From IMG/VR virus record IMGVR_UViG_3300007541_000078, positions 1 through 35,252 of that record: 35,252 bases of DNA. One strand, written 5' to 3'. Below are positions 10,938 to 32,248 of the stretch, one piece after another; the stretch's first letter is position 1; each line of letters begins with the position of its first letter. The stretch comes from a virus. The translations under genes were made by a program, and so were the position numbers. Below the pieces are notes generated by a model. That model did not search any database and was not told the DNA's origin. It worked only from the letters and a program-made list of their open reading frames with translations.

Positions 10938-10970
10938 CCCCCTGACCGAAAGGTTGGGGGGTTTTTCTTT
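10938..10970 (+). terminator. Strong intrinsic terminator for the rightward block
   Basis: CCCCCTGACC (10938-10947) and GGTTGGGGGG (10952-10961) form a 10-bp stem with a GAAA tetraloop, including two wobble pairs, followed by TTTTTCTTT. The T-tract touches the TAA stop of the converging giant gene (10969-10971). On the opposite strand no T-run follows, so it should act mainly on rightward transcripts. The 58 bases between 10879 and the stem show nothing else. Confidence 0.9.
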
Positions 10971-13900: not shown

Positions 13901-16900
13901 GCCGCCTGCTTCACATCACGAGGCGCACTCATCATCGGCAGTTCAACAGCGTCACGATAGTTCGGCGCAGGGGCGAGCATAGCTTCGATCAAGCGATCCG
14001 CTTGAGACATTGCCGAATCAATCTGTTTCGGCTGCATACCAACAAGTTTACGCACAAAGTTTGCAACTGAGTTTGCAAAGCGTTGGAACGCACTGACTTC
14101 TTTACCGTCAGGGTACATACCCGCCAGCTTTTGCTGGAACTCTGGGTTGGACATAGCTTCGGACGCAAACTCATCTACGTTTGTTGCACCGTATGCGGAA
14201 TCAAGCATCGGCTTCACATCTTCAAACAGCTTGGTCAACTGCTTGGTCAGCGGGTGGTTCTTGTTCGCTAGTGTCGCGCTAACCGCCGCGTGCGTCATCT
14301 CGTGCAGAAGTACGTGGGGGTTCAACCCTGCTTCTGCATCCAACTTAATAGTGTTGGTCTTGGGATCAAACAAACCTGCGACAGGCTTACCATCTTCGCC
14401 CTTGAGGTTCTTAACGATTTCGACTTGAGTAAAGTCTTGCGCACCTTCGAAAGCTTTTACTTTATCGCCACGAATTATGACTTCATCCTCTCCGATACGT
14501 CCACGTAATGTGATGTCGGGCGATGCAAGGATGTCTGATTTGTTTACAAGATACGCGTCAAGTTTTTGCTCTTTACCCTTACGCCAAGGTAGGTTGGAGT
14601 CGATAGAGTAGTTAGGGTCAAGTGTGTATGATTGCGGACTTTCAGGATCAATTTTACCTACACGATATACAACTACTGTATCAGGCTGATCTTTAAGCGC
14701 ACGTTGCGTTATGGCTTTAACGTCTCGTTTCAACGTATTTAATTCTGCGTTTGTAACATCTCTTGCTAAAACCGCTGAAAGTTCTGAAAGCGCATAATCT
14801 GCGTCTTCGTGCAGTGCACGGAATACATTAAAGTTGTCCCCTCCACGTCCAAGTAATAATTCTTTTGTAATATCACTTACATTTGCAGCGTCTAAGTCTG
14901 CCGCAAAACGCGTCGTGGAAAGGTTGAGGCGGGCTTTAAACTTATCTCCCCCGCGAACTACGTTAGCCATCTTGCTTGCAACCTGTGACACACGATTACT
15001 TGGCGACGTGCTGGCTAGTGCTCGCAGTGCACCTGCTAAGTCGTTATTACTTAGGGCTACACGCACTGCTGGATGCAGCGGCACGTCGAGGCCGACTACT
15101 GCACTGCGCTCAAGCATCTTCGAGAACATCTTCGACAGTTCGTTCAGGTTAGCCCGTACATCTTCACGCATCTCGGCTTCGACTTGCGATTGGAGTGCCG
15201 CTTCGTTTGCCGCTAGTTTGGCTTCGCGCTCCCGAAACATCTCAACATAGTCTGTGTTCTCAATGCGATTAAACTCACGCACTTCCTTCTTCAGCGTCTC
15301 GTCGATCCACTTGTTTGTCTTTGCTGACAAGTTAGCCTTAGCCCAGTCGAGTACCCGGCCCGCAGGCTTTTGACCCATACCTGAGAAGAAGTTACGACGT
15401 GATTGAGATTCGTTGGCTTGCGGACGATACTGTGGCGTTTGGTTAGCCGCATCGAAGATAGCGAGATACAGGCCATCAATCGGACGCTTGACCTTACCTA
15501 AATAAGTTAGGGCGGCTTGGCCTTCTTTGTCGCGCGCCGTCGTACCGTTGGTAAGCAGGGTCAAAATCTTAAGGCGGTCATCAGTGGTCGTGATGTCCTC
15601 ACCGATAATGTCGGTGTAATCCTTGCTCAGATCAGTTGCGATACCTTTGGTTTCGGCGTCCTGCGCCTCGAAACGCTCGTTAAGTTGTTTAGACGTATTG
15701 TCCTCAACAGGTGCCCGGCGTTTAGGAGTAGGCGCAGGGGCCATTGCCTCGGTGCGTTTCAGCTTGGTTTTCTTCAAATCTTTGGTGATTTTTGCACCCG
15801 CTTCGGGGAACGCAGGCATCACCTTGCGTTTTTTACTTTCTTGCTGAGACTCGGTAGCGGCGCGTCTCTTCTCGGCTTCGCGCACGACTTCTTTTGTGAC
15901 TTCGGCGCGTTCAGTCAACCGCGTGTCCAAAGGCGTTGAAAGACGGTTAATCGCTGCCGAACTCAAGTTCAGTGCAAGCGGTTCTTCCGCGCTCAAAGGT
16001 TGCGAGCGGCGGTTAATTTCTGCCGAACTTAAGTTCGATGCAATCTGTGCTTCTTCTGCGCTCAAAGGCTGCGAGCGACGGTTAGCCGCTGCCGAACTCA
16101 AGTTTAGTGCAAGCTGTTCTCCTCCCGCTCGTCTAGGAGCTTCTCCAGTGCCGCGCCCAGTATCACCCATTCCTCGTGTTCTAGGTGTTGGAGCTGCTTC
16201 GGTAGGTCTTCCTGCTTCAGGTAAAGGCGCTCCGAAATCCAGAGTTGGTGTAGTACCTTGAACGCCTGCTCCACCTGTTGCTGGCTGAGCTGGTCTAGTT
16301 TGTTCATCTTTGCCTCCTTTTCGTCCGCGTGGTTGAGGCTGAAACAATTCTAGTTGTGCTTCGGGCACTCCCTCTAGCTCGCGTGCGACGTTCAATCGAG
16401 TCTGCTGCGCAACTTTCGGGTTGTTTGCAAACTGGACAAACTGCTCACGTACCGCAGGGTCGTTCAAGTCTTTACCCTCAGTACGCGTGCGGATTGGCGC
16501 TTTCGGTGCAACGCCAAGGTTATCTAAGAACTCTTTCGTGATAGTTCTCGGTGCAGGAACCTCTTCTGGTAACTGCTCAGCACGCGCACCTTTACGCCTA
16601 CCCATCCCGGGGAACGACTGCTGCGTCATTTCACGGTCAGGTGCACGGCGCTCTGGGATGCGTGCCTCTAGTTCTTCAAGTTGCGTAGCCTCTGGCGCAG
16701 TCTCTACGACCTCCAACGGCTCTTGCTGCGCTTGCTTACGCTGTTCTTGCGGGCGCATACCTGCAAACGCATCTGCCGCACGGCGAATACGCGCAGTTTC
16801 TGCTGCGGTCGGCTTGGCACGATCACCACTTGCAATGTTGCGGCGAGACAGTTCTTGGGAGAACCGCCGCTCAAGGTTAACGTAGCTGCCTGTCGTCGGC

Positions 16901-18336
16901 TGACCGATAACGGCCTCCAACGCTGCTTCCCGAGGACTTGCTGCTTCTGCACGCGCTTCGTCACGGGCTGCTGCGGTTTCGGTTTCTCGCTGCGATGCGG
17001 CACGCATACGCTCGACACCTGCTACCGCTTCTTCGTCAGCGCGAATCATAGACTCGATTTCAGCAATCTCGGCATCGTCCATGTCCTGTTGGAACATGGC
17101 TTCAATCTCACGAGTATCTGCTGCGTCAATCGCACCTTCAATGGTTAGCTGTTCTGGCTCTGGCGTAGCGGCCTGTTCTTCTGCGGCTAGGATTTCGTCG
17201 AATACAGCTTCTTCGGTGATCGCGCTTGGCGCAACGCCGCGTGCGGTAAGTCTGTTTACCGCAGAGTTAATCTGGTCCGCGTTAAAGTCGGTAAGTGCTT
17301 CACCCGTCCCCGGTTCAACCGTCTGTGTAGTAGGACGTGCAAACAACTCACCCTGCACCTGTCCCTCTTCAAGGCGGGGTAAAACTTCTTCGGCGGTGAC
17401 TTCACCGATTTCAGTCGGGCCTTCGCCAGTATCGGTAGCGGCGCGTCTTGCGCGCCCCCTCGTAAAAGTATCGACAACGGCTTGTAGGATTGCACCTGCA
17501 CCGCCGCCAGCAATAGCCTCGTCAATCAGACCAGCATCAAGGAGTTCGCGCTCTGCGTTGTACCCACGCTCATTGAGGTTCTGTAGGAACCCCGCTGCGG
17601 CTTCCTGCGCTGCTTCAGTGCCACCAGTCGTAAGCGCACTACGGATACGGCTACCGCCTTCTTCAACGGTTTTACCGCCAATCTTCTGTGCAAGCTGTGA
17701 TACCCCCGGGATTCGTAGGATTCGGCCTAGTGGTAGGACTTCGAGAGAGCCAATTGCAGCGCCACGGAGTGTAGCGGATGCACGCTCTTCTTCGGTCGCA
17801 CCTGCGGCACGGGCACGTTCACTTGCTTCACCAGCACCAGCGCCGATACCAATAGCGGCTGCGCCACCAAGACCAATACCTGCGGCAACAGGGGCCGAAA
17901 CAGGAGCCGTAGCGGCGAGAGCGGCAGGGGCAAGAGCACCTACAAGAGAGCCAAGTCCTGACGAAATAAGGTACGAGATAGAGTCGGGATCACCACCTTC
18001 GGGGCGAAGCACGTCTGCTACGGCTTTAATACGCTCCCGAGCGGCGAGTTCATCTTCCTCTTCAAGCAGGGTAGCGGCACCGAGTGAGGCCATCTCACCA
18101 GTACCAACAAGGCCAGACAAGAAGCCCGTGCCTACGTTTTCAAAGAACCCTGCTTCTTCACGCGGACGCATACCCCCGTACCGAGCCTGCTGGTCGGCAA
18201 AGAACGCGGCTAAGTCCTCACCTTGAGGACGAGACTGCATTTCTCGAATGGCAGCGGCTAGTCGCTGTGCAGCTTCTACATCTCCCGCTGCGTGTGCATT
18301 TTTAAGGGCGGTCCCAAGCTGCTGAATTGTAGCCAT
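10969..18336 (-). CDS. Giant polyvalent/ejection protein with HExxH metallopeptidase signature
   Basis: A 2455-residue protein. Residues 1-60 are helical. Residues 105-175 are a Gly/Ala-rich hydrophobic stretch that could enter membranes. Residues 290-900 are charged and low complexity, with three 22-23-residue repeats near 741-803. Residues 1220-1295 resemble an ADP-ribosyltransferase fold (VVVYR with Arg1225, SYTLDPNYS, GEDEVII with Glu1283 and Glu1285). HEMTH (His1345, Glu1346, His1349) and DEFASEAMS (Glu1393) fit a gluzincin metallopeptidase. A long helical region follows, with a hydrophobic segment near 2180-2207 in the PLxRFG-like C-terminal part. Phage polyvalent proteins with such domains are known to be packaged and injected with DNA. 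AGGAG precedes ATG 18336. It is the last gene of the leftward block. Confidence 0.8.
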   Translation of the reverse strand: MATIQQLGTALKNAHAAGDVEAAQRLAAAIREMQSRPQGEDLAAFFADQQARYGGMRPREEAGFFENVGTGFLSGLVGTGEMASLGAATLLEEEDELAARERIKAVADVLRPEGGDPDSISYLISSGLGSLVGALAPAALAATAPVSAPVAAGIGLGGAAAIGIGAGAGEASERARAAGATEEERASATLRGAAIGSLEVLPLGRILRIPGVSQLAQKIGGKTVEEGGSRIRSALTTGGTEAAQEAAAGFLQNLNERGYNAERELLDAGLIDEAIAGGGAGAILQAVVDTFTRGRARRAATDTGEGPTEIGEVTAEEVLPRLEEGQVQGELFARPTTQTVEPGTGEALTDFNADQINSAVNRLTARGVAPSAITEEAVFDEILAAEEQAATPEPEQLTIEGAIDAADTREIEAMFQQDMDDAEIAEIESMIRADEEAVAGVERMRAASQRETETAAARDEARAEAASPREAALEAVIGQPTTGSYVNLERRFSQELSRRNIASGDRAKPTAAETARIRRAADAFAGMRPQEQRKQAQQEPLEVVETAPEATQLEELEARIPERRAPDREMTQQSFPGMGRRKGARAEQLPEEVPAPRTITKEFLDNLGVAPKAPIRTRTEGKDLNDPAVREQFVQFANNPKVAQQTRLNVARELEGVPEAQLELFQPQPRGRKGGKDEQTRPAQPATGGAGVQGTTPTLDFGAPLPEAGRPTEAAPTPRTRGMGDTGRGTGEAPRRAGGEQLALNLSSAAANRRSQPLSAEEAQIASNLSSAEINRRSQPLSAEEPLALNLSSAAINRLSTPLDTRLTERAEVTKEVVREAEKRRAATESQQESKKRKVMPAFPEAGAKITKDLKKTKLKRTEAMAPAPTPKRRAPVEDNTSKQLNERFEAQDAETKGIATDLSKDYTDIIGEDITTTDDRLKILTLLTNGTTARDKEGQAALTYLGKVKRPIDGLYLAIFDAANQTPQYRPQANESQSRRNFFSGMGQKPAGRVLDWAKANLSAKTNKWIDETLKKEVREFNRIENTDYVEMFREREAKLAANEAALQSQVEAEMREDVRANLNELSKMFSKMLERSAVVGLDVPLHPAVRVALSNNDLAGALRALASTSPSNRVSQVASKMANVVRGGDKFKARLNLSTTRFAADLDAANVSDITKELLLGRGGDNFNVFRALHEDADYALSELSAVLARDVTNAELNTLKRDVKAITQRALKDQPDTVVVYRVGKIDPESPQSYTLDPNYSIDSNLPWRKGKEQKLDAYLVNKSDILASPDITLRGRIGEDEVIIRGDKVKAFEGAQDFTQVEIVKNLKGEDGKPVAGLFDPKTNTIKLDAEAGLNPHVLLHEMTHAAVSATLANKNHPLTKQLTKLFEDVKPMLDSAYGATNVDEFASEAMSNPEFQQKLAGMYPDGKEVSAFQRFANSVANFVRKLVGMQPKQIDSAMSQADRLIEAMLAPAPNYRDAVELPMMSAPRDVKQAAKDLGEMQKKLGPLTQKARQQFADGSREMLRSGVNMNAKIAYLYGLGSQALGDVANKVGLGNVGLRLHDLIERQRGAMYLSDEYVQGKVREVEKWSNKAGIEKNQALNNIIYSRDHGATIWQVDPTLTQAQARKKYGDTEVSGRKLFDVWKDQRADWNTLGPDGQRAYKTMRDMYKDQYNKLKDVIYGRIDAAIKDPEAAAKLKREVYARLFDTGTLDVYFPLIREGQYKLEYSLKDSSVANERDAYVVQMFDNYAERDRAIAELKKDDNVVASSIKTHDGDYGLKQFQAAPPTSFVGQTLQTLKANKVDENVQAEILRLFVDALPENSFAKSLQKRKGTPGYIQDALYAMKTKGYDLGRQTARLEYSAKIQQLEDEIFEMEPAETGGPKTAVGRAVGAIPADMVKKELLDRAQFARSGAKNKQMERIYKGLNQVAFIYTIGFNAASALVNLSQVPLFVLPMLGGKYGYENTSSEIFKAMRLVTGSKVGSDSAHLMGKVLDKASLAYGIDAYYEVTPNGDFKVRKDLKLDKDTVAELERLSPLVKMATERGQLNRSFLLDALGLEEGGRVQRGNVITRNMDKISGISAMLFNQAERFNRQVTLIASYNLALEKIRKDNPSMSTQEARQKAAEEALYETQQTNGGAVLETAPKVSQQGIGRVAFMYKSYGLQMYYTMAKTAKEMVEAHIEGDKATRNRAFKQIMGFHGTALFFSGVYGLPLYGAVQLVMDALFFDDDEDDFNTMVRKQIGEGWFKGPLQEATGINIADRVRLTGLLIQENRYNSNASLEEDIMFYLGGPALSVGKRMLRAKDDFANGEIQRGIESALPAGVANAYKTTFGRYQEQGGIYTRRNDPMYADMSTWEMLAQGIGFAPADYIFQQEQNQRDKRVERAIVDERTNLMRRYYVALRVNDFDESSAVLDEIFEFNDRHPYASIANEDIQRSLDSHRRTSYEMYNGVTINPLVRYAIEQSRREYSR
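15928..16114 (-). repeat. Three in-frame protein repeats inside the giant gene
   Basis: Three imperfect copies, 69 and 66 bases apart, encode NLSSAAANRRSQPLSAEE-like units (the second has SSAEINRR, the third SSAAINRLSTPLD). They lie in the disordered charged region. DNA similarity between copies is high, which suggests recent duplication. Confidence 0.85.
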
Positions 18337-21036: not shown

Positions 21037-21858
21037 TCACGCTGGTAAATACTTTTTAGGGTCAATTTCTTTTCCCTGTTTCTCGGAACCTGTACGTGCT
21101 TTGCGTACCCGAGCCATCATGCTTTCAAGGACTTTAGCACCTGCATCGGAGTTGCCGTTGCCGAGATGGCTAACAACATCAGCCGGAATAACAAACTCGC
21201 CGTCACTCAATGCCGCTGGCTGCATCCCCTCGATTTCCGCAGGAACCTCGTCTGCCATACCGTCTGTGTCGCCGTTCAGATACTTGCCTTTTTTCATCTT
21301 CAATGTGGCTAAACCACCTGCTGCCAGCTTTTCTTGCACGGGGGCTGGAGGACCACGGCGTGCTTCACGGGCAGGGTTCTGAATGTTTTGCTCCATAAGT
21401 GAAGCGATTTGTTCGTCTTGACGCTGCTGTGCTGGAGTTACATCTGCATCCTGCGCGACATACTCGACATCAGTAAAATACCGACGACCACCACTTCCGG
21501 GGCGGCGGTTAGGATCATAGGCCATAGGCATCATACGCCCAGTAGGCTGACGGGCAGTAAGTGCCTGAAGACCAGTTGGCGTAGGGGTGCCCATCGGGCG
21601 GATCGCGCCACCTTGTAGTTCAGTGCCTCGCGCAACGGGGACTTGCTGCCGCATCGCGGTCAACGCAGGGATACCACCTTGGTACCCAGACGGTGGGATT
21701 TGCGCGTCACCTACACCAGATTTGTTGCCGAGGTAGCTAAGCCCCATTGAACCAAGGCGAATAATGCCCTCTGGGCTGCTAAGGTAGTCTATAGCGTTGC
21801 TACCAGCGGACTTTAATCCTGTACCTAACGCGTCGAGGGTATCATCGAGCCATGACAT
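21037..21858 (-). CDS. Virion-associated protein with AAGG and LSDGEFVIPADVV motifs
   Basis: A 273-residue protein. The N-terminal 50 residues are an amphipathic helix region. Residues 60-130 are Pro/Gly/Arg-rich. KLAAGGLATLKMKKG (177-191) is followed by a conserved segment with ALSDGEFVIPADVVSHLGNG and a helix AKVLESMMARVRKAR. The LSDGEFV(I/V)PADVVS segment is widespread in marine phage virion proteins, and its function is unknown. The start shares one base with the upstream stop (TAATG), and GGAGG precedes it, so it is coupled to the 1975-residue gene. Confidence 0.65.
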   Translation of the reverse strand: MSWLDDTLDALGTGLKSAGSNAIDYLSSPEGIIRLGSMGLSYLGNKSGVGDAQIPPSGYQGGIPALTAMRQQVPVARGTELQGGAIRPMGTPTPTGLQALTARQPTGRMMPMAYDPNRRPGSGGRRYFTDVEYVAQDADVTPAQQRQDEQIASLMEQNIQNPAREARRGPPAPVQEKLAAGGLATLKMKKGKYLNGDTDGMADEVPAEIEGMQPAALSDGEFVIPADVVSHLGNGNSDAGAKVLESMMARVRKARTGSEKQGKEIDPKKYLPA

Positions 21859-24800
21859 TATTTGCCTCCAATTATATTTAACAACTTATCAGTTGTATCC
21901 TCTACTTGTCCACCCTTTGCATACGGACTAGGGAATAAAGCCTGTTGTGAAGGGTTAGCAAATATGCTGCTCCAGTCGTAAATGTAGCGTAATTGTAGCG
22001 GATCAGGTGTTCTGACGCTAACTTGTTGCCCCGCTGCATCGGGTGCTTGGAGTGCCATTTGCAAGAAGTTACGTGCGCCTTCACGCATCGCTTCATCTTC
22101 TATGTTAGTAACAATGTTCTGTTCCATCTGTTGGATGGTATCCAGAGTTTGTTCTTGGTTTTGCTCCATCTGCTGTGTCAGATCGGTCTGCACGTCTTGG
22201 ATGGTGCCGTAAACGCCTGTTGGCGTGAACTGAGATGTGTCGGCAAACGTAACTTGCTCGCCGCCTAGCGCCTGTTCGAGCAGGGTTTGGTCGTTAATAT
22301 CAACGATGCCATCGCCTGTTACATCGTACAGAGCAAGCTGTTGCTCATTAAGCACTTGATTTTGCGCAATAACGTCAGCAACAAAGTCGATGTCGGTTTG
22401 AGTAACGTCCTGTGCAGGTTTGCCTACATAATTAGCAACGGTTTCAATGTCCGCACTAAGGGACTCTTCGACCCCAGTGATCTGCTCGCCCAGTGCCTCT
22501 TCAACCCCAGTAATTTGTCCGCTAAGAGCCTCTTCAGTAGCACCGAGTTGCTCAGTAAAGCTCGTCTCAAGCAGGTCAATCTGGTTGGTTAGGTTGGTTT
22601 CGGTCAACCCAAGCTGATCTAGTATGTCGGCTTTTGCTACGCCAAGATCAGTAGAAAGCTCGTCGATCGCGCTGGAAATAGCTTCGTCACGCTCTTGCCC
22701 TGCTGTTTCGTACTTATCAATAAGCCCAAACAAGCCAGTGGCGTCGGTTGACTCGTCTTCATCTGTAAACGGATTATCAGGTATTGCTGGCTGACCAAGA
22801 GTTAGCGCGATGTTACTAACGTCACCTGCAACTTCGCCGATTTCACCAGACAGGGCTTCTTCAGTCTGCGTCAGGGCGTTCGTAATATCGGTAACTGCAA
22901 CACCAAGATCAAGCGCAACCTGCGCAATAGCTTCGGCATTGGACAAGCCTTGGGCTTCGAGGTCTGCGATCTCTGCGTAAATACCTGTCGGTGCAGTAAC
23001 TAGGTTGCCGTCTGCGTCGTATTCGGCAGCGGTACCGACATTACCGATGAGGTCTTGCAGCGAGAGGCCGAGGTTGTCTACGGCGTTGTCGATGTAGTTA
23101 TAAAGACCAGTGGACTCAGTATCTTCTGTAGCAGGCGCACCGAGGATGTCTAGAACTTCGTCGATGTTGGAATCAAGGTACGCGTAAATACCTGTGGCTG
23201 CTGCGTCTTCGGTGGCGGGGGTACCAATTTGTCCCATGATCTCGTCACGGGTAACGCCAAGATCAGTCGCAACCGCATCAATCGCCGCGTCAAGATCGCC
23301 GCCAACCGTTGCAAGTTTGTCGAGCACCGAGGTTTCTACGTCAGTAAGATCGCCTGCAAGCGTGTCAAGCTGCGCATAGATACCCGTGGCTTCTGCATCG
23401 CCCGTGGCAGGGGTACCAACAATACCTTCAACGGTGGCCTGCACTTCTTCGTTTGTAAGGCCAGAATTTTTGAGTGTTTGCACTGCATCGTCGATGTAGG
23501 CGTACAGCCCAGTGGCTTCCTCTTCGCCCGACGCAATCTTACCGACAGCGGCTTCAAGGTTCTTGGTAGTTTGGTCAATAACTGCAACGTCAAGACCGAG
23601 GTCGCCCAGTGCGTTAATCATGTCGGCTTTAACGACATCCAACGCCTCTTGCATCTCGTCGGATACACCCGCCTCCCCTGAAAAGTTCTCAAGGATGTTC
23701 ATAATCGAGTTGTATCGTGCAGTCGGCAGGTACTCTTCGGCACGTCCTGCAAGTTCTACTTCAGCGTACTGACCTACAAGCTCTTGAATATCGGCATCGG
23801 TAGGACGTGTGAGGCCAAGGGCTTCATACGCAGCGGCAACTTCTTCGGCGTCAACGACACGAGGGTCGGTGTACTCTTCGATTGCTGCTTCTTGCTGCGA
23901 CTCACGAACTTGCCCTGTAAAGCTGGCAACTTCTTGGTCTGTTGGGGTGTATCCAAAGCTCTCAAGGAACGCCCGTGCTTCTTCTGCATCGGTGTAAAGT
24001 GGGTCAACAAAGGTAGCAATCGCTGCTTGCTGTTCAGCTTCGGTCGTAGCACCAACAAACTGTTCAATTTGTGCCTTCGTTGGTGTGAACCCGAGGTCAT
24101 TGAAGAACTGTTTGGATTCTTCATAAGTGGTGTACTGTGGGTCAAGTTCTGCACGCAGATCGGTTACGGCCTGCGTCTCGTCAGTTTGCTGCACATACTG
24201 CTGTGCTTGCTCTTCGGTAAGCGTGATGCCTTCCTGTGCAGCGGCGGCGATGACTTCTTGGGTATCGAAATACCGCGTGTCGATATGCTCAGCAATCTGC
24301 TGGACAGTCTGCGACTCGGTGCCTGCACCGATAAACTGCTCGATTTCGTCTTGTGTTGGCGTGTAGTCAGGGTTGGTAGTCTGGAACGCAGACTCCGCTT
24401 CCTGCGTACTGGTGTACTTGCTGTCGTTGATATTGTTTAAGATGTTAGTCTGCGCGGCACCAGTGATACCCAACTCAGTCAGTGAGTTCGCGGCGTTCTG
24501 CAAGCCCGCCGTTGTATTCGGCGTATTAGTAATGATCGCGTTGACTTCGGGGTTCATTGCCGAAACAAGGTTCGAGTACATGTCCCCAGTCTGACTGACT
24601 CCATATGCACCGCCTGCGATTGGGCCACCAATCAAGAAGCCCATAAACGCTGCACCTGCAACTTCACCCGCTACATTAATACTTGGGTCTAGCTGCGCAA
24701 GGTGACCTTCACGGTATGCGGTTGCGCCACCTTCTTCGATGGACTCAGTAACACCTTCACGGATCGTGATCTTTGCACCGTTGCCAATACGAGTACCAAG

Positions 24801-27785
24801 CTCGTCAATACCGCGTGCAAGGAAGCCGCTAACTTCGTCTCTACCAAGAATGGCTTTTTCAAGGGCTAGACCACCTACACCGAGGGTAACTGCGGTCATA
24901 GTCGCCGCGACCGTACCCGTCTCAACGGCTAGATTTAGGGCGTATTGTTGGGCTTCGGCATCGGACATACCTGATGCAGTAGCTACTTCGTAAGCACGAT
25001 CATATGTTTCCGCAGCCGTACCGCCAAAGCTCTCAGCAAGGTCGGTAGCCGCAGCCGCGCTTAGACCAGTCGTAGCCGCCATCCGTGCGGACAGCGTTCT
25101 GCCGACAGCCATAGCTGCGCCTTTAGCGCCAAGGGTAGCTACACCACCCACTGCAAGAGGTACAAGCTCCTGCATGGCTTCGACACCGATGTATTCCGCG
25201 ATAAACGCAGTCGGCTGAGTAGCAATCGCACCCGCGATGTTCTCAACTTTTTCAAAGGCCCGCTCGTACCATGGCGCGTCAGGGTCAAGCTCTGACGGAC
25301 GGTTCATAAGCGAATTAAGTTCTTGTAGGTTCTGGTTGTACTCTTCGGTGGTAGACGCTTCACCCAGCTTAACAAGTTTGTCTGCGAACTGTCCGAGTGC
25401 GGTTTCAGAAGGCACCACACCAGCAAGAGCAACAACACCGTTGAAGGCTTTAAGGATGCCGCCCCCTGCCTTCATGACGTTAGCAGCGGTGTTAACCAGC
25501 GCGTCGTTACCAGTGTTTTTAGCGAGATTTATAATGTTTGATGCAAAGTTAATGGCATTGTCTACGCCACCAAGCTGCGCACCTGCTGCCTGAATTACAG
25601 CGTTGTCGGTAAGTGCATCGTTAATCTGCTGTGCACTGGCGTTACCTTGCAGGAGGCCATTAATGGTGTCGCCAAAGGTCGCAGTGCTGTTACCTCCGTA
25701 AATGGTAATCCGCATTGGGGTGACTAAGTTGCCATCCATATCTTTGGTTACTACCCCGTAAGGACGACCTTGGCTATCATAGGAAGTAGTAACAGTTACA
25801 CGCCCGAACTCAGGGTCATATTTTTGTTCAGTAACGCGTACGTTGCGCCAGACACGGTTACCATCTGCGTCGTATTCAACCGAGGCTTTACCCGAAGCAA
25901 CGTCTTGCCATGAAGTACCAGACGCAAGACCTGCGGTAGAAGTACCTTGGTTATCCTGTGCGTAAAGCGCGGCTTTTTCTGCGTCTGTAAGAATGTCACC
26001 ATCCATACCATCAGAAGTATCAAACCCCAATGCCCCCAACCGTGCGCGGTTATCTGCATCCAGCGTAGCGTTTCGGTACGGGTTATCGTTTCGGTTTGCC
26101 AGCCCTGTTTGAACTTGCGCAGCTAGGTCCGCAACAACCGATTCGTCATTAAGCGCGGCTTCAAGATCATTGGGGTTGTCGTATGCGCTAGAAATAGCGT
26201 TATAGACTCCCTGAAGCTGATTGGCGTTCAAACTGCTCGGATCAATACCTGCTTCGGTAAACACACGGTTCATCATCGCAGACGTATTACGCCGTTGCGC
26301 CGCATTAAACTGGTCAAAGTTCGTATATACGTTCTCGTATTGACCGTTTTCTAGGAAGTGTTGATACGCATCGACGCCAGCAGGAAGGTCGTTTAGCGCA
26401 CGGTATTCGGCCTCGTTGAACAGTGGGTCCATCACCAGAGTGACCGCCTTGGTCAGCTCGTCGTTGAGTGGTTTAAGCTCGTCGTCCAACCGCTCAATAG
26501 ACACGTTCATGTTGCTCTGTGCTTCGAGCAAGTCAGCTTCAGCGGTCTCAAGCAGTCCTGTGTCACGCTCAATAGCCGTGACTAGGTTCTCCATAAGCGG
26601 GTTATACTGTTGATACTTCGTGTTGAAGTTCTCAATCATGGTGTTGAGTGCGCCAACAGATTTGTTGTACTCGATCTGCTGTGCCTCGTTGTTTGTAGGC
26701 AGTCCAGCAATGCGCGTCTTTTCCGCTTCAATATCTTCGTAAAGACCAGCCAACTCGGTGCGCATATCTTCATATGCTCTGGCGTTAGCTTGGCGGCGCA
26801 GGCCAATATCATTAACTCGTTTAGCAGCGTCTTCGGTTTCTTGGTAGTCACCAGAAATTTTATCCAGTGTGTTACCGATGAAGTCACCAACCTTAGAGTT
26901 ATCAATGGCTTCCTTGAGTTTGGCACCGCCATATGCTGACAGTGTGGCCTGCAACGCGGCGGCGGCTTGCTCGCCTGACCCACCTGACAAAGCAACCGCT
27001 GTAACACGCTGCAACGCAGCGGTGGTATATGCAAGTGCAGCAGGGTCATCAAAACTAACGCCCCCTTTCGCTGCCAAGTCAGACACAAGCTCAGTCGTCA
27101 ACAGACCACGCGTAACTGCACCTGCCATCAACTCGGGCGTGATCTGCTGGCCTTGAAGCTGCGCAGTAATACCTGCGGCGACAATGTTGGATACGGTGTT
27201 TGGAATCGGCTTGGTAGTAACACGCCCCGTGTCGGGGTCTTTTACCTGCACCTCGAAGCCTAGAGATTCCTGAATTTTACCAAGGCCCGCTGACACGCCC
27301 GCGCTTAGACCACCACGTAGGAAGGCTTGCATTGGGTCTTCGCCGTAGATAACGGCAGTCGTTGCTTGAACTGCGCCCTCTTTGACGATTTCACCAACAA
27401 GCTCGCTACCTACTGCTTCGGCAACGTAGTCACCTGCGTAAGAACCAACTTCACCACCGACAGCGCTTGCAACGTAAGAAACAGCCGTAGCTTTCAGAAC
27501 GTCACCAATATCACCGCCGTTAGCAGCGACACTAGCCCCATCAATCAGTGGAATTGCCCACGCATTACCCGTAGCCACCGCAGCAATCTTAGCGATTGTT
27601 TCGATGGGGTTGTCCATAAGGGCGTCGATCGTATCGCCAACGAAATTTGCAACAGGTTTGATGATTTCATCTGCAACGAAGTCAACGACATCGCTGATCC
27701 CGTCACCGACCCATTCGATAACGTCACCGACTGCATCAGCTACACCGCCGATAACATCGCCAATAAAATCAACAACTGCTGACAC
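21858..27785 (-). CDS. Giant repeat-rich tail/ejection-type protein
   Basis: A 1975-residue protein starting at GTG 27785 after AAGGGG. Residues 1-60 are an unusual amphipathic array of DFIGDVIGGVADAVGDVI type that could form membrane-active helices. Hydrophobic Gly/Ala segments recur, for instance at about 1040-1075. Near residues 455-482 is one YRALNDLPAGVDAYQHFLENG unit like those of alphaproteobacterial hemolysin-type proteins. Residues 1120-1345 carry about five tandem units of 45-50 residues, and residues 1418-1860 carry seven TG(I/L/V)Y units. A single EF-hand/dockerin-like loop (DVTGDGIVDIND) lies near 1819-1832. The end carries YAKGGQV. No enzyme motif is seen. It is probably a structural or DNA-ejection protein. 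Confidence 0.7.
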   Translation of the reverse strand: MSAVVDFIGDVIGGVADAVGDVIEWVGDGISDVVDFVADEIIKPVANFVGDTIDALMDNPIETIAKIAAVATGNAWAIPLIDGASVAANGGDIGDVLKATAVSYVASAVGGEVGSYAGDYVAEAVGSELVGEIVKEGAVQATTAVIYGEDPMQAFLRGGLSAGVSAGLGKIQESLGFEVQVKDPDTGRVTTKPIPNTVSNIVAAGITAQLQGQQITPELMAGAVTRGLLTTELVSDLAAKGGVSFDDPAALAYTTAALQRVTAVALSGGSGEQAAAALQATLSAYGGAKLKEAIDNSKVGDFIGNTLDKISGDYQETEDAAKRVNDIGLRRQANARAYEDMRTELAGLYEDIEAEKTRIAGLPTNNEAQQIEYNKSVGALNTMIENFNTKYQQYNPLMENLVTAIERDTGLLETAEADLLEAQSNMNVSIERLDDELKPLNDELTKAVTLVMDPLFNEAEYRALNDLPAGVDAYQHFLENGQYENVYTNFDQFNAAQRRNTSAMMNRVFTEAGIDPSSLNANQLQGVYNAISSAYDNPNDLEAALNDESVVADLAAQVQTGLANRNDNPYRNATLDADNRARLGALGFDTSDGMDGDILTDAEKAALYAQDNQGTSTAGLASGTSWQDVASGKASVEYDADGNRVWRNVRVTEQKYDPEFGRVTVTTSYDSQGRPYGVVTKDMDGNLVTPMRITIYGGNSTATFGDTINGLLQGNASAQQINDALTDNAVIQAAGAQLGGVDNAINFASNIINLAKNTGNDALVNTAANVMKAGGGILKAFNGVVALAGVVPSETALGQFADKLVKLGEASTTEEYNQNLQELNSLMNRPSELDPDAPWYERAFEKVENIAGAIATQPTAFIAEYIGVEAMQELVPLAVGGVATLGAKGAAMAVGRTLSARMAATTGLSAAAATDLAESFGGTAAETYDRAYEVATASGMSDAEAQQYALNLAVETGTVAATMTAVTLGVGGLALEKAILGRDEVSGFLARGIDELGTRIGNGAKITIREGVTESIEEGGATAYREGHLAQLDPSINVAGEVAGAAFMGFLIGGPIAGGAYGVSQTGDMYSNLVSAMNPEVNAIITNTPNTTAGLQNAANSLTELGITGAAQTNILNNINDSKYTSTQEAESAFQTTNPDYTPTQDEIEQFIGAGTESQTVQQIAEHIDTRYFDTQEVIAAAAQEGITLTEEQAQQYVQQTDETQAVTDLRAELDPQYTTYEESKQFFNDLGFTPTKAQIEQFVGATTEAEQQAAIATFVDPLYTDAEEARAFLESFGYTPTDQEVASFTGQVRESQQEAAIEEYTDPRVVDAEEVAAAYEALGLTRPTDADIQELVGQYAEVELAGRAEEYLPTARYNSIMNILENFSGEAGVSDEMQEALDVVKADMINALGDLGLDVAVIDQTTKNLEAAVGKIASGEEEATGLYAYIDDAVQTLKNSGLTNEEVQATVEGIVGTPATGDAEATGIYAQLDTLAGDLTDVETSVLDKLATVGGDLDAAIDAVATDLGVTRDEIMGQIGTPATEDAAATGIYAYLDSNIDEVLDILGAPATEDTESTGLYNYIDNAVDNLGLSLQDLIGNVGTAAEYDADGNLVTAPTGIYAEIADLEAQGLSNAEAIAQVALDLGVAVTDITNALTQTEEALSGEIGEVAGDVSNIALTLGQPAIPDNPFTDEDESTDATGLFGLIDKYETAGQERDEAISSAIDELSTDLGVAKADILDQLGLTETNLTNQIDLLETSFTEQLGATEEALSGQITGVEEALGEQITGVEESLSADIETVANYVGKPAQDVTQTDIDFVADVIAQNQVLNEQQLALYDVTGDGIVDINDQTLLEQALGGEQVTFADTSQFTPTGVYGTIQDVQTDLTQQMEQNQEQTLDTIQQMEQNIVTNIEDEAMREGARNFLQMALQAPDAAGQQVSVRTPDPLQLRYIYDWSSIFANPSQQALFPSPYAKGGQVEDTTDKLLNIIGGK
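22205..23530 (-). repeat. TG(I/L/V)Y repeat family in the 1975-residue protein
   Basis: Seven units share a core of ATG(I/L)YxY(I/L)D, for example EEEATGLYAYIDDAV, EDAAATGIYAYLDSN, EDTESTGLYNYIDNAV and FTPTGVYGTIQDV. Several are preceded by G(T/A)PAT-x-D. Spacing is variable (about 40-110 residues), with coiled-coil-like sequence between units. Confidence 0.8.
23750..24425 (-). repeat. Tandem 45-50-residue repeats in the 1975-residue protein
   Basis: About five consecutive units follow the pattern YxxxxEAxxFxxxxGYTPTxxEIxxFVG...DP, for example LYTDAEEARAFLESFGYTPT and QYTTYEESKQFFNDLGFTPT. The units look like helix-turn-helix pairs in a solenoid and are well diverged, so the array is old rather than recently copied. 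Confidence 0.8.
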
Positions 27786-27786
27786 G

Positions 27787-28257
27787 TTATAACCCCTTCG
27801 CCAACGGCTCTTTGCCGAGTTTTATAAACACCACGTACTTGTCGTCGTACTGTTTAAGCCGCCCGATACCAATCTCAGTATCCTGTTTTCTTGCACGGCG
27901 TTGGAATATCTTGAACGCGTTTAGAAAAACAGGGCCGTCAAAAATCGTCGTGTAATGCGTTATGCCCTTTTGTTGAAGGTACGTGAAATACTTAAAGCCG
28001 TTAACTGCAAAGTTACGGCCTGTGTCCACGTTGAACGCACGTCCTACCATTTTCTTTTTGTTTGGACCTTTGCCTCGATGCGCTAAGAACACCGTGTTGC
28101 CAATCTGGACAATATCCGTATCAGGCAAGTTGGTTTCCGCAGCGATCGCTGCCATTACAGCCTCATTAGAAAACTTCATCTGGGGCATGTTGTAGATTGT
28201 CTGCGCGACAATCTCAGGTCCGGGTAGGATTTTCTCGTTACTGTCTACAATAACCAT
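27787..28257 (-). CDS. Conserved phage protein downstream of KAS, GNAT-like fold possible
   Basis: A 156-residue protein (MVIVDSNEKILPGPEIVAQT at its start). The middle has DIVQIGNTVFLAHRGKG, then VNGFKYFTYLQQKGITHYTT and NAFKIFQRRARK, ending in a beta-like YVVFIKLG. This alternating strand-helix layout resembles small GNAT-like proteins found in late regions of marine phages, but the acetyl-CoA-binding RxxGxG/A loop is not evident. A longer frame begins further upstream inside the KAS gene. ATG 28257 is chosen because GGGAGGTG precedes it and it sits one base after the KAS stop. A link to acyl-ACP use is speculation from position alone. Confidence 0.55.
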   Translation of the reverse strand: MVIVDSNEKILPGPEIVAQTIYNMPQMKFSNEAVMAAIAAETNLPDTDIVQIGNTVFLAHRGKGPNKKKMVGRAFNVDTGRNFAVNGFKYFTYLQQKGITHYTTIFDGPVFLNAFKIFQRRARKQDTEIGIGRLKQYDDKYVVFIKLGKEPLAKGL

Positions 28258-28258
28258 C

Positions 28259-29371
28259 TCACACCTCCCGTGAAAACAACGCAGCCGAGTAGATATTACC
28301 CATTCCAGCGGCAAGACTGAGGATAAGTCCATCGGGTACAGGGGCGTCAGAAGACAAGAACACAGGATCATCCTGAGTCCTATTCAAAATCTTAGGCACA
28401 TAGCCAGATTTCAGGTCGTTTAGCAGCAAACCAGTCTCCAATAATCCGCTAGCGCCCATGGTGTGTCCGATACGTGGTTTGTAAGACGTAGCTACAAACT
28501 CGTTAAGAGAACTTAAAAGCGCCGATTTTTCCGCAGCATTATTGACTGGCGTGCCAGTTCCATGCGTTTTGACCAACCTTACATCATTTTGGTGGGCTTT
28601 GGCTACAAATAATGCGCCTTCGATGGCTTTTATGAAGCCAGAACCGTCATTTCTCTGGCCCAGAGGGTTCGTATTGTCCTCGGCGGAGCTGTATGCGCCC
28701 TTAAATTCAGCCAGTGGAGCCGCCATTCCTCTGTGTTCTTTCTCGAAAATAGCTATAACTGCGCCCTGCCCAATGTGGAACCCTTGGTTATGGTCATCAA
28801 ACGCAGATGGCTGCATCTTGTCCTCGTCGGCATATTGTAGGCTAGCCCCTGCCTCTCCGAAGAACTCCAGCACCAAGTTGTTTACGCTGTCCTCACCGCT
28901 GAACACGATCACACGGTCAAACCCGTAGTTCGTCATAAGGTTCTGCATGTTCATCAAGACATGCAGGCTGGAAGCGCAGGCGCTTGCATCGGTCGATACG
29001 TGGTCATGAACCCCAAACATAGTGGCGATCCGCCCCGCATAGATATTGGTTAGTACGATAAATGGTACTTTTACTTTGTAATGCAGTTCCGCATCGGGGT
29101 TTTTGTCATACCGCCCGTTGGTGCCCATCCAGCCTTGGTTGCCCGCAGCGAAGAGAAACCCAGTCTTGCCCTTCACGGGGTTGTCGAGAACGTAGCTGCG
29201 TAGCTCCTCGTCTATCAGGCTTTCCAGCAGGACGTGCGGCGGGTATTTAAGGCCAGACTTGGCCCTGCGAAACGTATTCGGCAGGATGTGGGCATGTTGG
29301 GGAAACGGTATATCGGAGATTAACTTCTTTTCAGTTGTGCACGCAGTGCGGCATTGCGTTAAGTAAATCAT
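28259..29371 (-). CDS. Beta-ketoacyl-ACP synthase (KAS, FabF/FabB-like)
   Basis: A 370-residue thiolase-fold condensing enzyme. The active site is complete: Cys132 in STDASACASS, His270 in KTHGTGTP and His303 in GHTMGASG, with Lys298 five residues before it. The Cys-His (138) and His-His (33) distances are close to those of E. coli FabF (140 and 37). The C-terminal GMGNIYSAALF matches the Gly-rich end of the family. The protein is about 40 residues shorter than FabF, and the usual N-terminal VVVTGLG segment is missing or replaced. The enzyme would condense an acyl chain with malonyl-ACP. It is coupled to the ACP gene by ATGA and lies among tail genes. Confidence 0.9.
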   Translation of the reverse strand: MIYLTQCRTACTTEKKLISDIPFPQHAHILPNTFRRAKSGLKYPPHVLLESLIDEELRSYVLDNPVKGKTGFLFAAGNQGWMGTNGRYDKNPDAELHYKVKVPFIVLTNIYAGRIATMFGVHDHVSTDASACASSLHVLMNMQNLMTNYGFDRVIVFSGEDSVNNLVLEFFGEAGASLQYADEDKMQPSAFDDHNQGFHIGQGAVIAIFEKEHRGMAAPLAEFKGAYSSAEDNTNPLGQRNDGSGFIKAIEGALFVAKAHQNDVRLVKTHGTGTPVNNAAEKSALLSSLNEFVATSYKPRIGHTMGASGLLETGLLLNDLKSGYVPKILNRTQDDPVFLSSDAPVPDGLILSLAAGMGNIYSAALFSREV

Positions 29372-29673
29372 GCCAATTCCCTCACTAAGTCTTTAATTGT
29401 TTCAAACTCGTCTTCGGGGTCTTGGGTCTTCTTCTCCATGATAAAATCACGCAGCGCGCCGACACTGGATACGGGCCACTCAGAGTCCAGCTCCTCTTCG
29501 ATGCCATAGGCTTCACCTAGAATGACGTAGGTGAGCGTAACATCGAGGCTATCTAAGCCTGTAGTGTCTTCATTTATTGGGGTTTCGAGGGATTTAGCAG
29601 GGATAAAGTCGTCGGTAATGACTTTCTGCTTCGCCCCCACAGCATTAAAAAGTTCAAGGAAATCAAAGGCCAT
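29368..29673 (-). CDS. Acyl carrier protein (ACP)
   Basis: A 101-residue acidic protein. GLDSLDVT holds Ser42, the site for 4'-phosphopantetheine attachment, at the start of the second helix, as in bacterial ACPs (DSL motif). Downstream YVILGEAYGIEEEL fits helix II and its following loop. The last 20 residues are an acidic extension beyond the usual 75-85 residues. It should carry acyl intermediates for the adjoining KAS once modified by a host phosphopantetheinyl transferase, since none is visible here. AGGAG precedes ATG 29673. Its stop overlaps the KAS start (ATGA). Confidence 0.9.
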   Translation of the reverse strand: MAFDFLELFNAVGAKQKVITDDFIPAKSLETPINEDTTGLDSLDVTLTYVILGEAYGIEEELDSEWPVSSVGALRDFIMEKKTQDPEDEFETIKDLVRELA

Positions 29674-29691: not shown

Positions 29692-29746
29692 GGTACCCCC
29701 AGTATATACATCTGGGCACCGGAAGCAACTAGACACTATAAGTTGC
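29692..29746 (-). promoter_or_regulatory. Two hairpins between the fibre and ACP genes
   Basis: GCAACT (29725-29730) pairs with AGTTGC (29741-29746) across the fibre stop codon. CCCAG (29698-29702) pairs with CTGGG (29712-29716), with GGT/ACC outer arms at 29692 and 29718. This 62-base gap is the longest one between the fibre gene and the giant genes. Neither stem is followed by a T-run on the minus strand, so partial termination, mRNA processing or translation control are all possible. Confidence 0.4.
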
Positions 29747-30359
29747 TAACAAATGATACCGCAACGACAGTGGATGGGATTCCGGGGTGAGGTGATGTAG
29801 GTGCAGTGGAGTCAAGTGATAAAGATAAGTCTGCTGTAGCCCAATACATTTCGATGTATTGACCTGCTGTTAGATCAATAGAAAAGTTCCAAAACACTGG
29901 CTGGTTAGAATTACCTTTAATTGTCTGTTCCTGCCCACCATAAGCCACATCGGTTCCGTTTTTGTTAATCCACGTAGTTATCTTAACATCAGAAGAGTTA
30001 GTGTGTGCGGTTTGTAATGTCACTTGGAAGTTGTAAACTCCATCAGCCGTCACAGTAATCCGTGTATTATCTACGCCTGCTATACTTATCCCGTTACCGA
30101 TATAGGTGTTTTCAAACTCCACAGGATAGCCTGTATTAGTAACCGCAGCCGTTTGGTCAGCGGTGCTATAAAAGAGACCCCGTGGCATGTATAGAAACTT
30201 GCCACCATCGTCGGTGCTGAGCAACGTGTTGAGAGAGTTAACCAAACGATTGAAAAATAGCCGCAGAACGTTGCTGTTCTGGTCCATAAATGGACGACGG
30301 TACTCTTCAGGGGCCAGTGGTAGAGCAGGCGGCTCTACTCTCTCAATCTCATTTGCCAT
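29736..30359 (-). CDS. C1q/TNF-like beta-sandwich fibre or decoration protein
   Basis: A 207-residue protein. The first 55 residues include a helical segment (NVLRLFFNRLVNSLNTLLS) that could trimerise. The rest reads as a jelly-roll domain of C1q type: GLFYSTADQTAA, then GISIAGVDNTRITVTADGVY, NFQVTLQ, KITTWINKNGT, and the closing AGQYIEMYWATADLSLSL. Such domains form trimeric heads on phage fibres and bind receptors, so a receptor-binding role is plausible. It follows the gp10-like gene with a TAATG overlap and GGAGG before the start. Confidence 0.7.
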   Translation of the reverse strand: MANEIERVEPPALPLAPEEYRRPFMDQNSNVLRLFFNRLVNSLNTLLSTDDGGKFLYMPRGLFYSTADQTAAVTNTGYPVEFENTYIGNGISIAGVDNTRITVTADGVYNFQVTLQTAHTNSSDVKITTWINKNGTDVAYGGQEQTIKGNSNQPVFWNFSIDLTAGQYIEMYWATADLSLSLDSTAPTSPHPGIPSTVVAVSFVSNL

Positions 30360-32248
30360 TAGCGCCTCCCATCAGGGCGCATATCTACGCGGGGCGATCC
30401 TAGCTGCCACTTAACTCCAAGGTCAGTGGACTCCATTTTGAGCGACATCTGCCGTCCCCGCACGCGGGTATTAACCTGCCCTGTAAACTGCTCAATCGGC
30501 ACAGTGGCGGTGCGTGTTACTGCGCCCGAGTTTGATCCACCTTCTGACAAGGGGTTATTGTACCCAGACCCAGAGTTAGCCAAAGGCAGCAAGCTCATTG
30601 TAGCGGCAGGGCTGGTCGCGGTAGACCCGTCGAAGGTCACATCAGGCATAATCCGCCAGATAAAGGCAAACTTGTCGCCATCATCGAGATCAAACTGCCC
30701 AGACGTAATAGTCGCTGTAATCGGCACTGGGGTGCCTGTCTCGTTGTCGTCTGTGCCTAGCTCGTGGTTGACGAGGTTGTAACTGTAAGTCGCCGCAAGC
30801 GGGTAGTCTCGCAGACCTGAATCGAGCCACGCAGTGCGCCCCATAGTGCCGTAGTACCATGTTTGTTCGAGGTAGTTATAGACCACGTACTTATCTACGT
30901 TGTCACTGCCCAATGAGCAGTAGAACCACCAGACTTCGTGGAAGGCTTCGTTGGTCCCCGCAAATACTTGGTCGTATTGCAGCTCGTTAAAGTCACCAAA
31001 CACAAAGCGGCGCACGTCGCATTTCAACGGCTGACTGCGACCATCGTACATGTAGAACTTATCTTTCCCCATCCAGAACGCGACACCACTGGCAAAAGCC
31101 ACGGCGTTTTGAGACGCAATGGAGATGTTATCACCGACCAACTGAGCGCCCCATACCGCAGGTGCGCCTTGGTATTGCAGGGAATACAGGGAGGAGTTGG
31201 TCCAAACGAGCACCTCTTGGCGAGACTGTTTAGCAGACACAATCCGTGTGCCACGAGAAAGCCGCAAGGAACCCGCTTGGTTTGTTGACGCTGGCGTCCA
31301 GTTTGCAGGGTCTTCCTGATCGGACCAGCGAATAAGCATCGGGTCTACCGTAGCAGTGCCAACATCGTTGGTGCCAAAGCAGAACACAAAACGATTGATG
31401 TCCGACACAAGAATAAAGTTTTGTTGGGTGGGTACGTCAGACGCGCCAGCCAAAGATGACAGATACACGCCTCGTGTACTCACGCCATTGGTTGCGTCCC
31501 AATAGAAAATGTCCCCGCCACGAGGGCCAAAGATAAGGTCTTCACCAAAGTTAGACTGACTCCAGAGGCGGATTGCTTCGGTGGAAATACCACCTGTACC
31601 CCAGACACCTGCGCCCCATGTGCCGCCGCCCCAACCAGAAAGAGGGACTTCATATGGCTCACCAGTACGGATTTGGTACGCGCCAACAACTGCGGCACCC
31701 CCGTTACCTGTGTCTGATCCATCAGCCAGTACGGGCGCACCCGTCACATTGTCTTTGGCTTCGACCTCGTAGTTATCGTCGTCGATAACCACAGTGATCT
31801 GATACTCTTGGTTCAGAATGTCGGCAGTGATATTGCCTCCGAGAGACACCGCGCCGCTGAAAGTAACAAAGTCATTCACACGAGCACCGTGCCCGTTATC
31901 AGTGACCGTTAGAGTCGCATCGCCGCTCGTAGCCGCAAAGGTAACGTCCCCAGCCGCAGTAGTCTCCCGAATCGGTGTAATGTCATTGTAACCGCCACCT
32001 TGTTCGAGGTAGAACTTTAAGTGCGTACCGACACCAATCAAGTTAATGCTGCCGAGCGTTACCCAGTTCCATAAGGAACGGCATACGCCAAGGAAGGTAG
32101 TGCCTGATATTTGCGACCAACCACCAATCTTTTCTGGAAACCCCTGCCTAAAGCGAACTTTATCGCACTCGTACCAACCACCTTCGTTGGTGTAACGTGT
32201 TACTTCGCGGTTGATTCCGGGTTTGAATATAAGTTTCTTTAGGGGCAT
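30359..32248 (-). CDS. P22 gp10-like tail/DNA-stabilisation protein
   Basis: A 629-residue beta-rich protein. The opening KKLIFKPGINREVTRYTNEG with GGWYECDKVRFRQGFPEKIG is a common start of marine podovirus homologues of the P22 gp10 tail hub protein that closes the portal after packaging. Trp- and Gly-rich beta segments recur (IRLWSQSNFGEDLIFGPRGG, MLIRWSDQEDPANWTP, VWWFYCSLG), as in a propeller-like fold. A Ca-like or Ig-like insert at about 100-180 has TLTVTDNGHG and similar strands. It is the best marker that the virion is short-tailed. The end is coupled to the fibre gene. Confidence 0.75.
   Translation of the reverse strand: MPLKKLIFKPGINREVTRYTNEGGWYECDKVRFRQGFPEKIGGWSQISGTTFLGVCRSLWNWVTLGSINLIGVGTHLKFYLEQGGGYNDITPIRETTAAGDVTFAATSGDATLTVTDNGHGARVNDFVTFSGAVSLGGNITADILNQEYQITVVIDDDNYEVEAKDNVTGAPVLADGSDTGNGGAAVVGAYQIRTGEPYEVPLSGWGGGTWGAGVWGTGGISTEAIRLWSQSNFGEDLIFGPRGGDIFYWDATNGVSTRGVYLSSLAGASDVPTQQNFILVSDINRFVFCFGTNDVGTATVDPMLIRWSDQEDPANWTPASTNQAGSLRLSRGTRIVSAKQSRQEVLVWTNSSLYSLQYQGAPAVWGAQLVGDNISIASQNAVAFASGVAFWMGKDKFYMYDGRSQPLKCDVRRFVFGDFNELQYDQVFAGTNEAFHEVWWFYCSLGSDNVDKYVVYNYLEQTWYYGTMGRTAWLDSGLRDYPLAATYSYNLVNHELGTDDNETGTPVPITATITSGQFDLDDGDKFAFIWRIMPDVTFDGSTATSPAATMSLLPLANSGSGYNNPLSEGGSNSGAVTRTATVPIEQFTGQVNTRVRGRQMSLKMESTDLGVKWQLGSPRVDMRPDGRR

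Follow-up and report, generated by a model that had tools for sequence, protein, structure and literature searches.

The window analysed here is a whole virus record, IMG/VR record IMGVR_UViG_3300007541_000078 (35,252 nt), in which a leftward run of genes encodes an acyl carrier protein (ACP), a beta-ketoacyl-ACP synthase (KAS), a 156-aa protein with a predicted GNAT fold and a very large 1975-aa protein. The first three form a conserved gene set, ACP-KAS-GNAT, that is carried by hundreds of uncultured aquatic tailed phages. A first-pass annotation of this DNA had pointed to the ACP and KAS genes, coupled by an ATGA overlap and lying in the same-strand run as fibre and ejection-type genes. Both the overlap and the location in the tail-side late operon were confirmed, whereas the GNAT-fold gene between KAS and the 1975-aa gene was absent from that account. 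The genes are as follows.

29368..29673, minus strand: ACP, 101 aa; Ser42 in G-L-D-S-L-D is the predicted phosphopantetheine site, D41-S42 are invariant, and the assignment is backed by the family profile and an AlphaFold2 model.
28259..29371, minus strand: divergent KAS, 370 aa; PF00109/PF02801, tetrad Cys132/His270/Lys298/His303, viral-only clade.
27787..28257, minus strand: GNAT-fold protein, 156 aa, a probable acyltransferase judging from the AlphaFold2 model, Foldseek and the covariation of residue 115.
21858..27785, minus strand: 1975-aa ejection-type protein, the proposed acyl acceptor, with a Val-rich amphipathic N-terminus (MSAVVDFIGDVIGGVADAVGDV) whose character is conserved after the GNAT gene.

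Scores of 60.8 bits for PF02801 and 40.1 bits for PF00109 exceeded the curated cut-off (20.8), and these matches together with the Cys-His-His and Lys residues place the KAS in the beta-ketoacyl synthase superfamily (KAS I/II type). FabF was its best generic family-model match, although the score against the FabF equivalog model TIGR03150 was 106.2 bits, below the cut-off of 493.75 bits. Cys132, His270 and His303 had been recognized from the start; Lys298 completes the tetrad, and all four residues are kept in 243/243 KAS homologues, with Glu312 also retained. The single ACP sequence had no Pfam match. Nearly all matches of the ACP family profile in the PDB were acyl carrier proteins (best 4.9e-6), and the best Foldseek matches of the AlphaFold2 model (pLDDT 88.8) were also nearly all ACPs, none of them below E 0.036. 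The protein has the predicted helical ACP fold and the DSL serine that the first-pass annotation had noted, which is present in all 253 homologues. Such invariance of the active-site residues across 243 KAS and 253 ACP sequences shows that the ACP-KAS observation is not due to chance. The dN/dS values of the ACP, KAS and GNAT genes (0.03-0.18) indicate purifying selection on all three.

The 156-aa protein had no match in Pfam, PHROG or NCBIfam, and a profile sequence search of the PDB returned chance matches only. Its AlphaFold2 model (pLDDT 91.3, built from 17 homologues) has a beta-beta-beta-alpha-beta-alpha-beta-beta core in GNAT-like order, and the top of the Foldseek PDB list consisted only of GNAT-superfamily acetyltransferases (E 1.2e-4, probability 1.00, TM about 0.5). 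The BFVD matches were uncultured Caudovirales proteins. By this model, the protein has the fold of the GNAT superfamily. The CoA-binding motif A (R/Q-x-x-G-x-G/A) was not detectable in the alignment, where the beta4-alpha3 turn reads NVDTGRNF.

To determine how widely the set occurs, we scanned IMG/VR with three divergent KAS queries, which yielded 325, 151 and 66 stretches with KAS relatives, in overlapping sets. Readable flanks were available for 228 viral loci, some sharing a contig, after four bacterial loci were excluded; 20 loci initially flagged as lacking the ACP merely had a longer predicted KAS start and were counted as ACP-bearing. The ACP directly precedes KAS in 228/228 loci and the GNAT gene follows KAS in 224, with a Val-rich amphipathic ejection-type protein as the next gene. 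At 90% identity the KAS sequences form 72 clusters, the lowest identity between any pair being 46%. Recurrence beside gp10-like and ejection-type genes, which the first-pass annotation had proposed as a check, was found across hundreds of viral contigs. In ten records of 38-66 kb that carry the cassette, no gene of the phosphopantetheinyl transferase, FabG (PF13561) or FabD (PF00698) type was detected. The cassette is shared by a single annotated phage record, MW202545.1 (Manatee Spring), in which the annotators had named KAS alone. In full-text literature searches, whose coverage leaves out subscription papers, no ACP-KAS-GNAT phage cassette was described. One KAS gene (L042:3326-4865) looks like a mosaic, with an N-terminal half close to that of L014 and a C-terminal part and following GNAT close to those of L073/L055; the cause would be recombination inside the cassette or else an assembly chimera.

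Natural variants of the locus bear on how the three genes are related. In two loci from two metagenomes (L090 and L106), KAS has been deleted, and the ACP and GNAT genes are intact with 73 nt between them. The scar (L090:2198-2284, L106:5638-5724) contains a short frame, MSK..EGALFIAK.H.NDV.LAGGMEWH, which keeps the ATGA overlap with the ACP stop and whose core matches 25 residues of KAS (242-266). Given that the ACP accompanies KAS and remains with GNAT once KAS is lost, the ACP is the hub of the cassette. A second variant is a GNAT clade (L314-L316, L325-L334, L339, L341, L342, L344-L354; support 97/94) with no ACP or KAS at the site, nor elsewhere in the eight records examined, which reach up to 58 kb. 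Midpoint rooting, which is not proof of the root, places this clade among cassette carriers and suggests that it arose by loss of ACP-KAS.

We then compared the GNAT sequences with and without KAS. Among nine positions conserved at 97% or above in KAS-bearing phages, none of which is a His, one (residue 115) changes when KAS is absent. Every KAS-bearing locus has Phe there (231/231, from 103 distinct local contexts). Of the 28 loci lacking KAS none has Phe: the two with a deleted KAS carry Met, and the other 26, in which both ACP and KAS are missing, carry Ala, Met, Leu or Ile. In a GNAT tree with a total of 39.4 substitutions per site, the two KAS-less groups sit on stems of 0.15 and 0.19. 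The residue lies in the helix corresponding to GNAT alpha4, and Phe115 may line the acyl channel. This pattern is hard to explain unless the GNAT donor depends on KAS, and coupling of the donor to KAS is fairly well supported. A docking argument from charge (mean net charge -11 for the ACP and +3 for GNAT) was uninformative, as the GNATs without the pair are charged similarly.

The 1975-aa protein encoded after GNAT in the window gave weak profile matches only, and we call it ejection-type because of its position and a neighbouring phrog_4287 match. Its N-terminal sequence includes SAVVDFIGDVIGG. The amphipathic N-terminal character is kept in 143 distinct loci directly after GNAT, with a Val fraction of 0.25 (0.06 in other open reading frames) and a hydrophobic moment of 0.43 (0.24 in others); its mean Val fraction was reached by none of 520 other open reading frames. 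Among 50,697 phage records, a close match to the window N-terminus was found in one, the cassette carrier MW202545, although low-complexity filtering in BLAST may hide others; a second, more repetitive N-terminal query had no match among these records. The first 40 residues contain no conserved lysine across the 143 loci, and 68 of these loci have no lysine there at all. We therefore rejected a lysine acceptor, and the N-terminal amine would be the common acceptor. Acylation there is probably the simplest protein-directed reaction compatible with these sequences. A literature search on phage virion acylation returned nothing relevant.

The origin of the KAS was also investigated. A pattern-based scan of 84,980 species, with one genome per species, detected no close KAS apart from that of L110, a phage-like contig in a Balneolaceae metagenome-assembled genome that shows the same gene order. 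In a maximum-likelihood tree, 32 viral KAS sequences formed one clade (support 100/100), whose stem measures 3.8 changes per site; the bacterial sample of nine sequences is small, which bears on the exact sister group. Neither a close bacterial relative nor nesting within bacterial genes, as would mark a recently host-derived auxiliary metabolic gene, was seen. A recent host origin is thus not supported, and the scan and the tree together reject the stray acquisition of host fatty-acid genes that the first-pass annotation had named among the outcomes that would refute its proposal. KAS genes in supposed 'phage' records from Listeria, Enterococcus, Staphylococcus and Acinetobacter appear to stem from contamination by the host (the assemblies are unverified or the genes are of host type), which leaves MW202545 as the only genuine database relative. 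OR846615, OR846837, OR844991, CAKLQF020000022 and AGRM01000005, filed as phage, apparently carry host fatty-acid genes and are a trap for claims of phage KAS.

Based on these results, we tentatively propose that the ACP, the KAS and the GNAT-fold protein constitute one acyl-transfer cassette whose acceptor is most likely the N-terminus of the ejection-type protein, a reading to which we give somewhat less than an even chance. Host AcpS would pantetheinylate the phage ACP to give a holo-ACP carrying the acyl chain. The phage KAS would condense this chain with malonyl units, the malonyl-ACP coming from the host, and host FabD/FabG/FabZ/FabI would carry out the remaining steps to give an acyl-ACP of defined form. 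GNAT would then pass the acyl group to an amine, most likely the one exposed by Met removal at the N-terminus of the amphipathic protein encoded directly downstream, and acylation might help this protein to get into or through the membrane when the genome is delivered. The first-pass annotation had offered three roles, namely acylation of a virion protein, a modified acyl chain for the host membrane and a tail-tip small molecule. The first of these now leads, because GNAT sits between KAS and the amphipathic ejection-type protein and because residue 115 covaries with KAS. The full scheme, in which aquatic tailed phages of a broad group produce acyl-ACP themselves, with a virus-specific ACP and KAS, and lipidate the ejection-protein N-terminus through a virus-specific GNAT, is possible, if rather doubtful.

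Several observations weigh against this proposal. Common descent often preserves gene order within tail and ejection modules, and adjacency alone therefore proves little. The GNAT clade without ACP and KAS keeps the same ejection-type neighbour, and the pair is therefore not indispensable to it; such relatives in an unchanged context had been named beforehand as a counterargument, and they do weaken the original argument. In four loci (L219, L222, L223 and L228) the pair lies in an early region instead (for example L219:3602-4998 and L228:629-2202), either behind a helicase-type gene or surrounded by small genes of early type, and these short contigs show no GNAT. A late-operon position is accordingly not obligatory, which weakens the earlier argument from that position to a role in assembly or lysis. 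Residue 115 was found post hoc by scanning all positions, and its pattern reflects two independent events. The protein after GNAT starts with M-S/G/A/P/T in 140/143 distinct loci, but a small second residue is found in 68% of background open reading frames; we rejected such a start as proof of N-acylation and regard it as permissive only. Finally, enzymatic activity of GNAT is assumed, given that it matches no GNAT family by sequence.

We also considered the possibility that the ACP and KAS are an auxiliary metabolic pair that boosts or redirects host fatty-acid synthesis, for example for membrane fluidity or the late envelope, with GNAT acting separately on acetyl-CoA. The four early-region pairs and the occurrence of GNAT without ACP-KAS are both in line with it, and phage ACPs have been interpreted in this way (PMC11705849, PMC8224337). 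However, an independent pair would not account for the change at residue 115 in all KAS-less loci, ACP and GNAT persist after the KAS deletion, and the KAS is not recently host-derived, so we consider this account unlikely. A lower probability still attaches to small-molecule synthesis, in which GNAT would use acyl-ACP to make an N-acyl amine (an N-acyl amino acid or a homoserine-lactone-like compound) that is released at lysis, in the manner of FeeM or LuxI. FeeM, which binds ACP, synthesizes N-acyl amino acids (PMC4897644), the minimal set for such a product would be an ACP and an acyltransferase, and the tracking of KAS by residue 115 fits equally well. Nevertheless, the gene lies within a virion/ejection run and has the same ejection-type neighbour even without ACP-KAS, neither FeeM nor LuxI was among the top 50 Foldseek matches of the GNAT-fold model, and no neighbouring efflux or regulator gene was noticed, although no systematic search for one was made. 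It is also improbable that the KAS is an acyltransferase rather than a condensing enzyme, moving the acyl group from the ACP to another carrier or a protein. Its N-terminal third is atypical and divergent and it matches the model of AmcF, a KAS-superfamily acyltransferase subunit, at 84 bits, but this is under the model's cut-off, the full Cys-His-Lys-His tetrad and Glu312 are kept, and FabF gives the best match among generic models. A purely structural role for all three folds, as non-catalytic virion or scaffold proteins, recalls the position of T7 gp13, whose annotation is that of an internal virion or scaffold protein and which has been suggested to act so, but is very improbable in view of the invariant catalytic residues of every KAS and ACP and the lack of sequence relation between GNAT and T7 gp13.

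If the acyl-transfer proposal is correct, lipidation of the ejection protein would be a phage counterpart to the N-myristoylation of internal capsid proteins in some animal viruses, and would provide a concrete chemical step in the crossing of the cell envelope by short-tailed phages. It may also explain the GNAT-like genes beside ejection genes in some podoviruses. Auxiliary metabolism is the usual label for phage ACPs. In the present case the ACP, KAS and GNAT are virus-specific and conserved within a virion operon, and a single GNAT residue that tracks KAS points to a dedicated acyl chemistry. The KAS-deleted, pair-less and relocated-pair variants offer ready-made natural comparisons.

In the rest of the window, the rightward genes are those of replication (DNA polymerase, SNF2-type helicase, primase). 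The leftward run comprises a holin, an M15 endolysin, a P22 gp10-like protein and a fibre-like protein upstream of the cassette and the 1975-aa gene. Two neighbours provide context.

29736..30359, minus strand: 207-aa fibre/BclA_C-like protein, upstream of the ACP and outside the cassette, found in most closer relatives.
30359..32248, minus strand: P22 gp10-like virion structural (stabilisation) protein (phrog_3287, E=6.5e-71), with homologues in phages DSL-LC04, CRP-902 and HTVC027P.

A further minus-strand gene (10969-18336) encodes a 2455-aa protein whose C-terminal part resembles very large phage proteins annotated as DarB-like antirestriction proteins.

Among known systems, the KAS shares its superfamily and catalytic tetrad with bacterial FabF/FabB, but it has 370 aa, a divergent N-terminal third, 106 against 494 bits and a separate long-stem clade. 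Phage ACPs have been reported as auxiliary metabolic genes in Alteromonas phage R22Y and, as fabG-acpP-fabF, in Rhodobacteraceae prophages (PMC11705849, PMC8224337). These likewise place an ACP, in some prophages with fabF, on a phage, but they are read as host-type fatty-acid genes, whereas ACP-KAS-GNAT is specific to viruses and stands as a unit in front of an ejection-type gene. Podovirus GNATs (roseophage CRP-902 gp35 and Octadecabacter DB virus 2 gp16, at the T7 gp13 position) also lie just before internal or ejection genes. The annotated GNAT/acetyltransferase genes, at 12894-13328 in CRP-902 (L116) and 11413-11769 in DB virus 2 (L118), are both without ACP-KAS. Homology of the cassette GNAT to these proteins or to T7 gp13 was rejected for want of any sequence signal; what is shared is position, plus the fold in the case of the annotated GNATs. 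FeeL/FeeM also combine an ACP with an ACP-binding N-acyl synthase, but the phage set includes a KAS and resides in a structural operon. RtxC acyltransferases are reported to have a GNAT fold without detectable sequence homology, to lack CoA-binding elements and to use an acyl-ACP donor for toxin acylation (PMC8339906). The phage GNAT resembles RtxC/HlyC in its predicted fold, in having no recognisable sequence similarity to other GNATs, in the missing CoA motif, in its proposed acyl-ACP donor and in having its gene immediately before that of a large membrane-active protein. It differs in its dedicated ACP and KAS, its proposed N-terminal acceptor and its virion context, and it is not a member of the RtxC/HlyC family because the conserved His is lacking. 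In terms of proposed function, the RtxC enzymes are the closest parallel of the phage GNAT.
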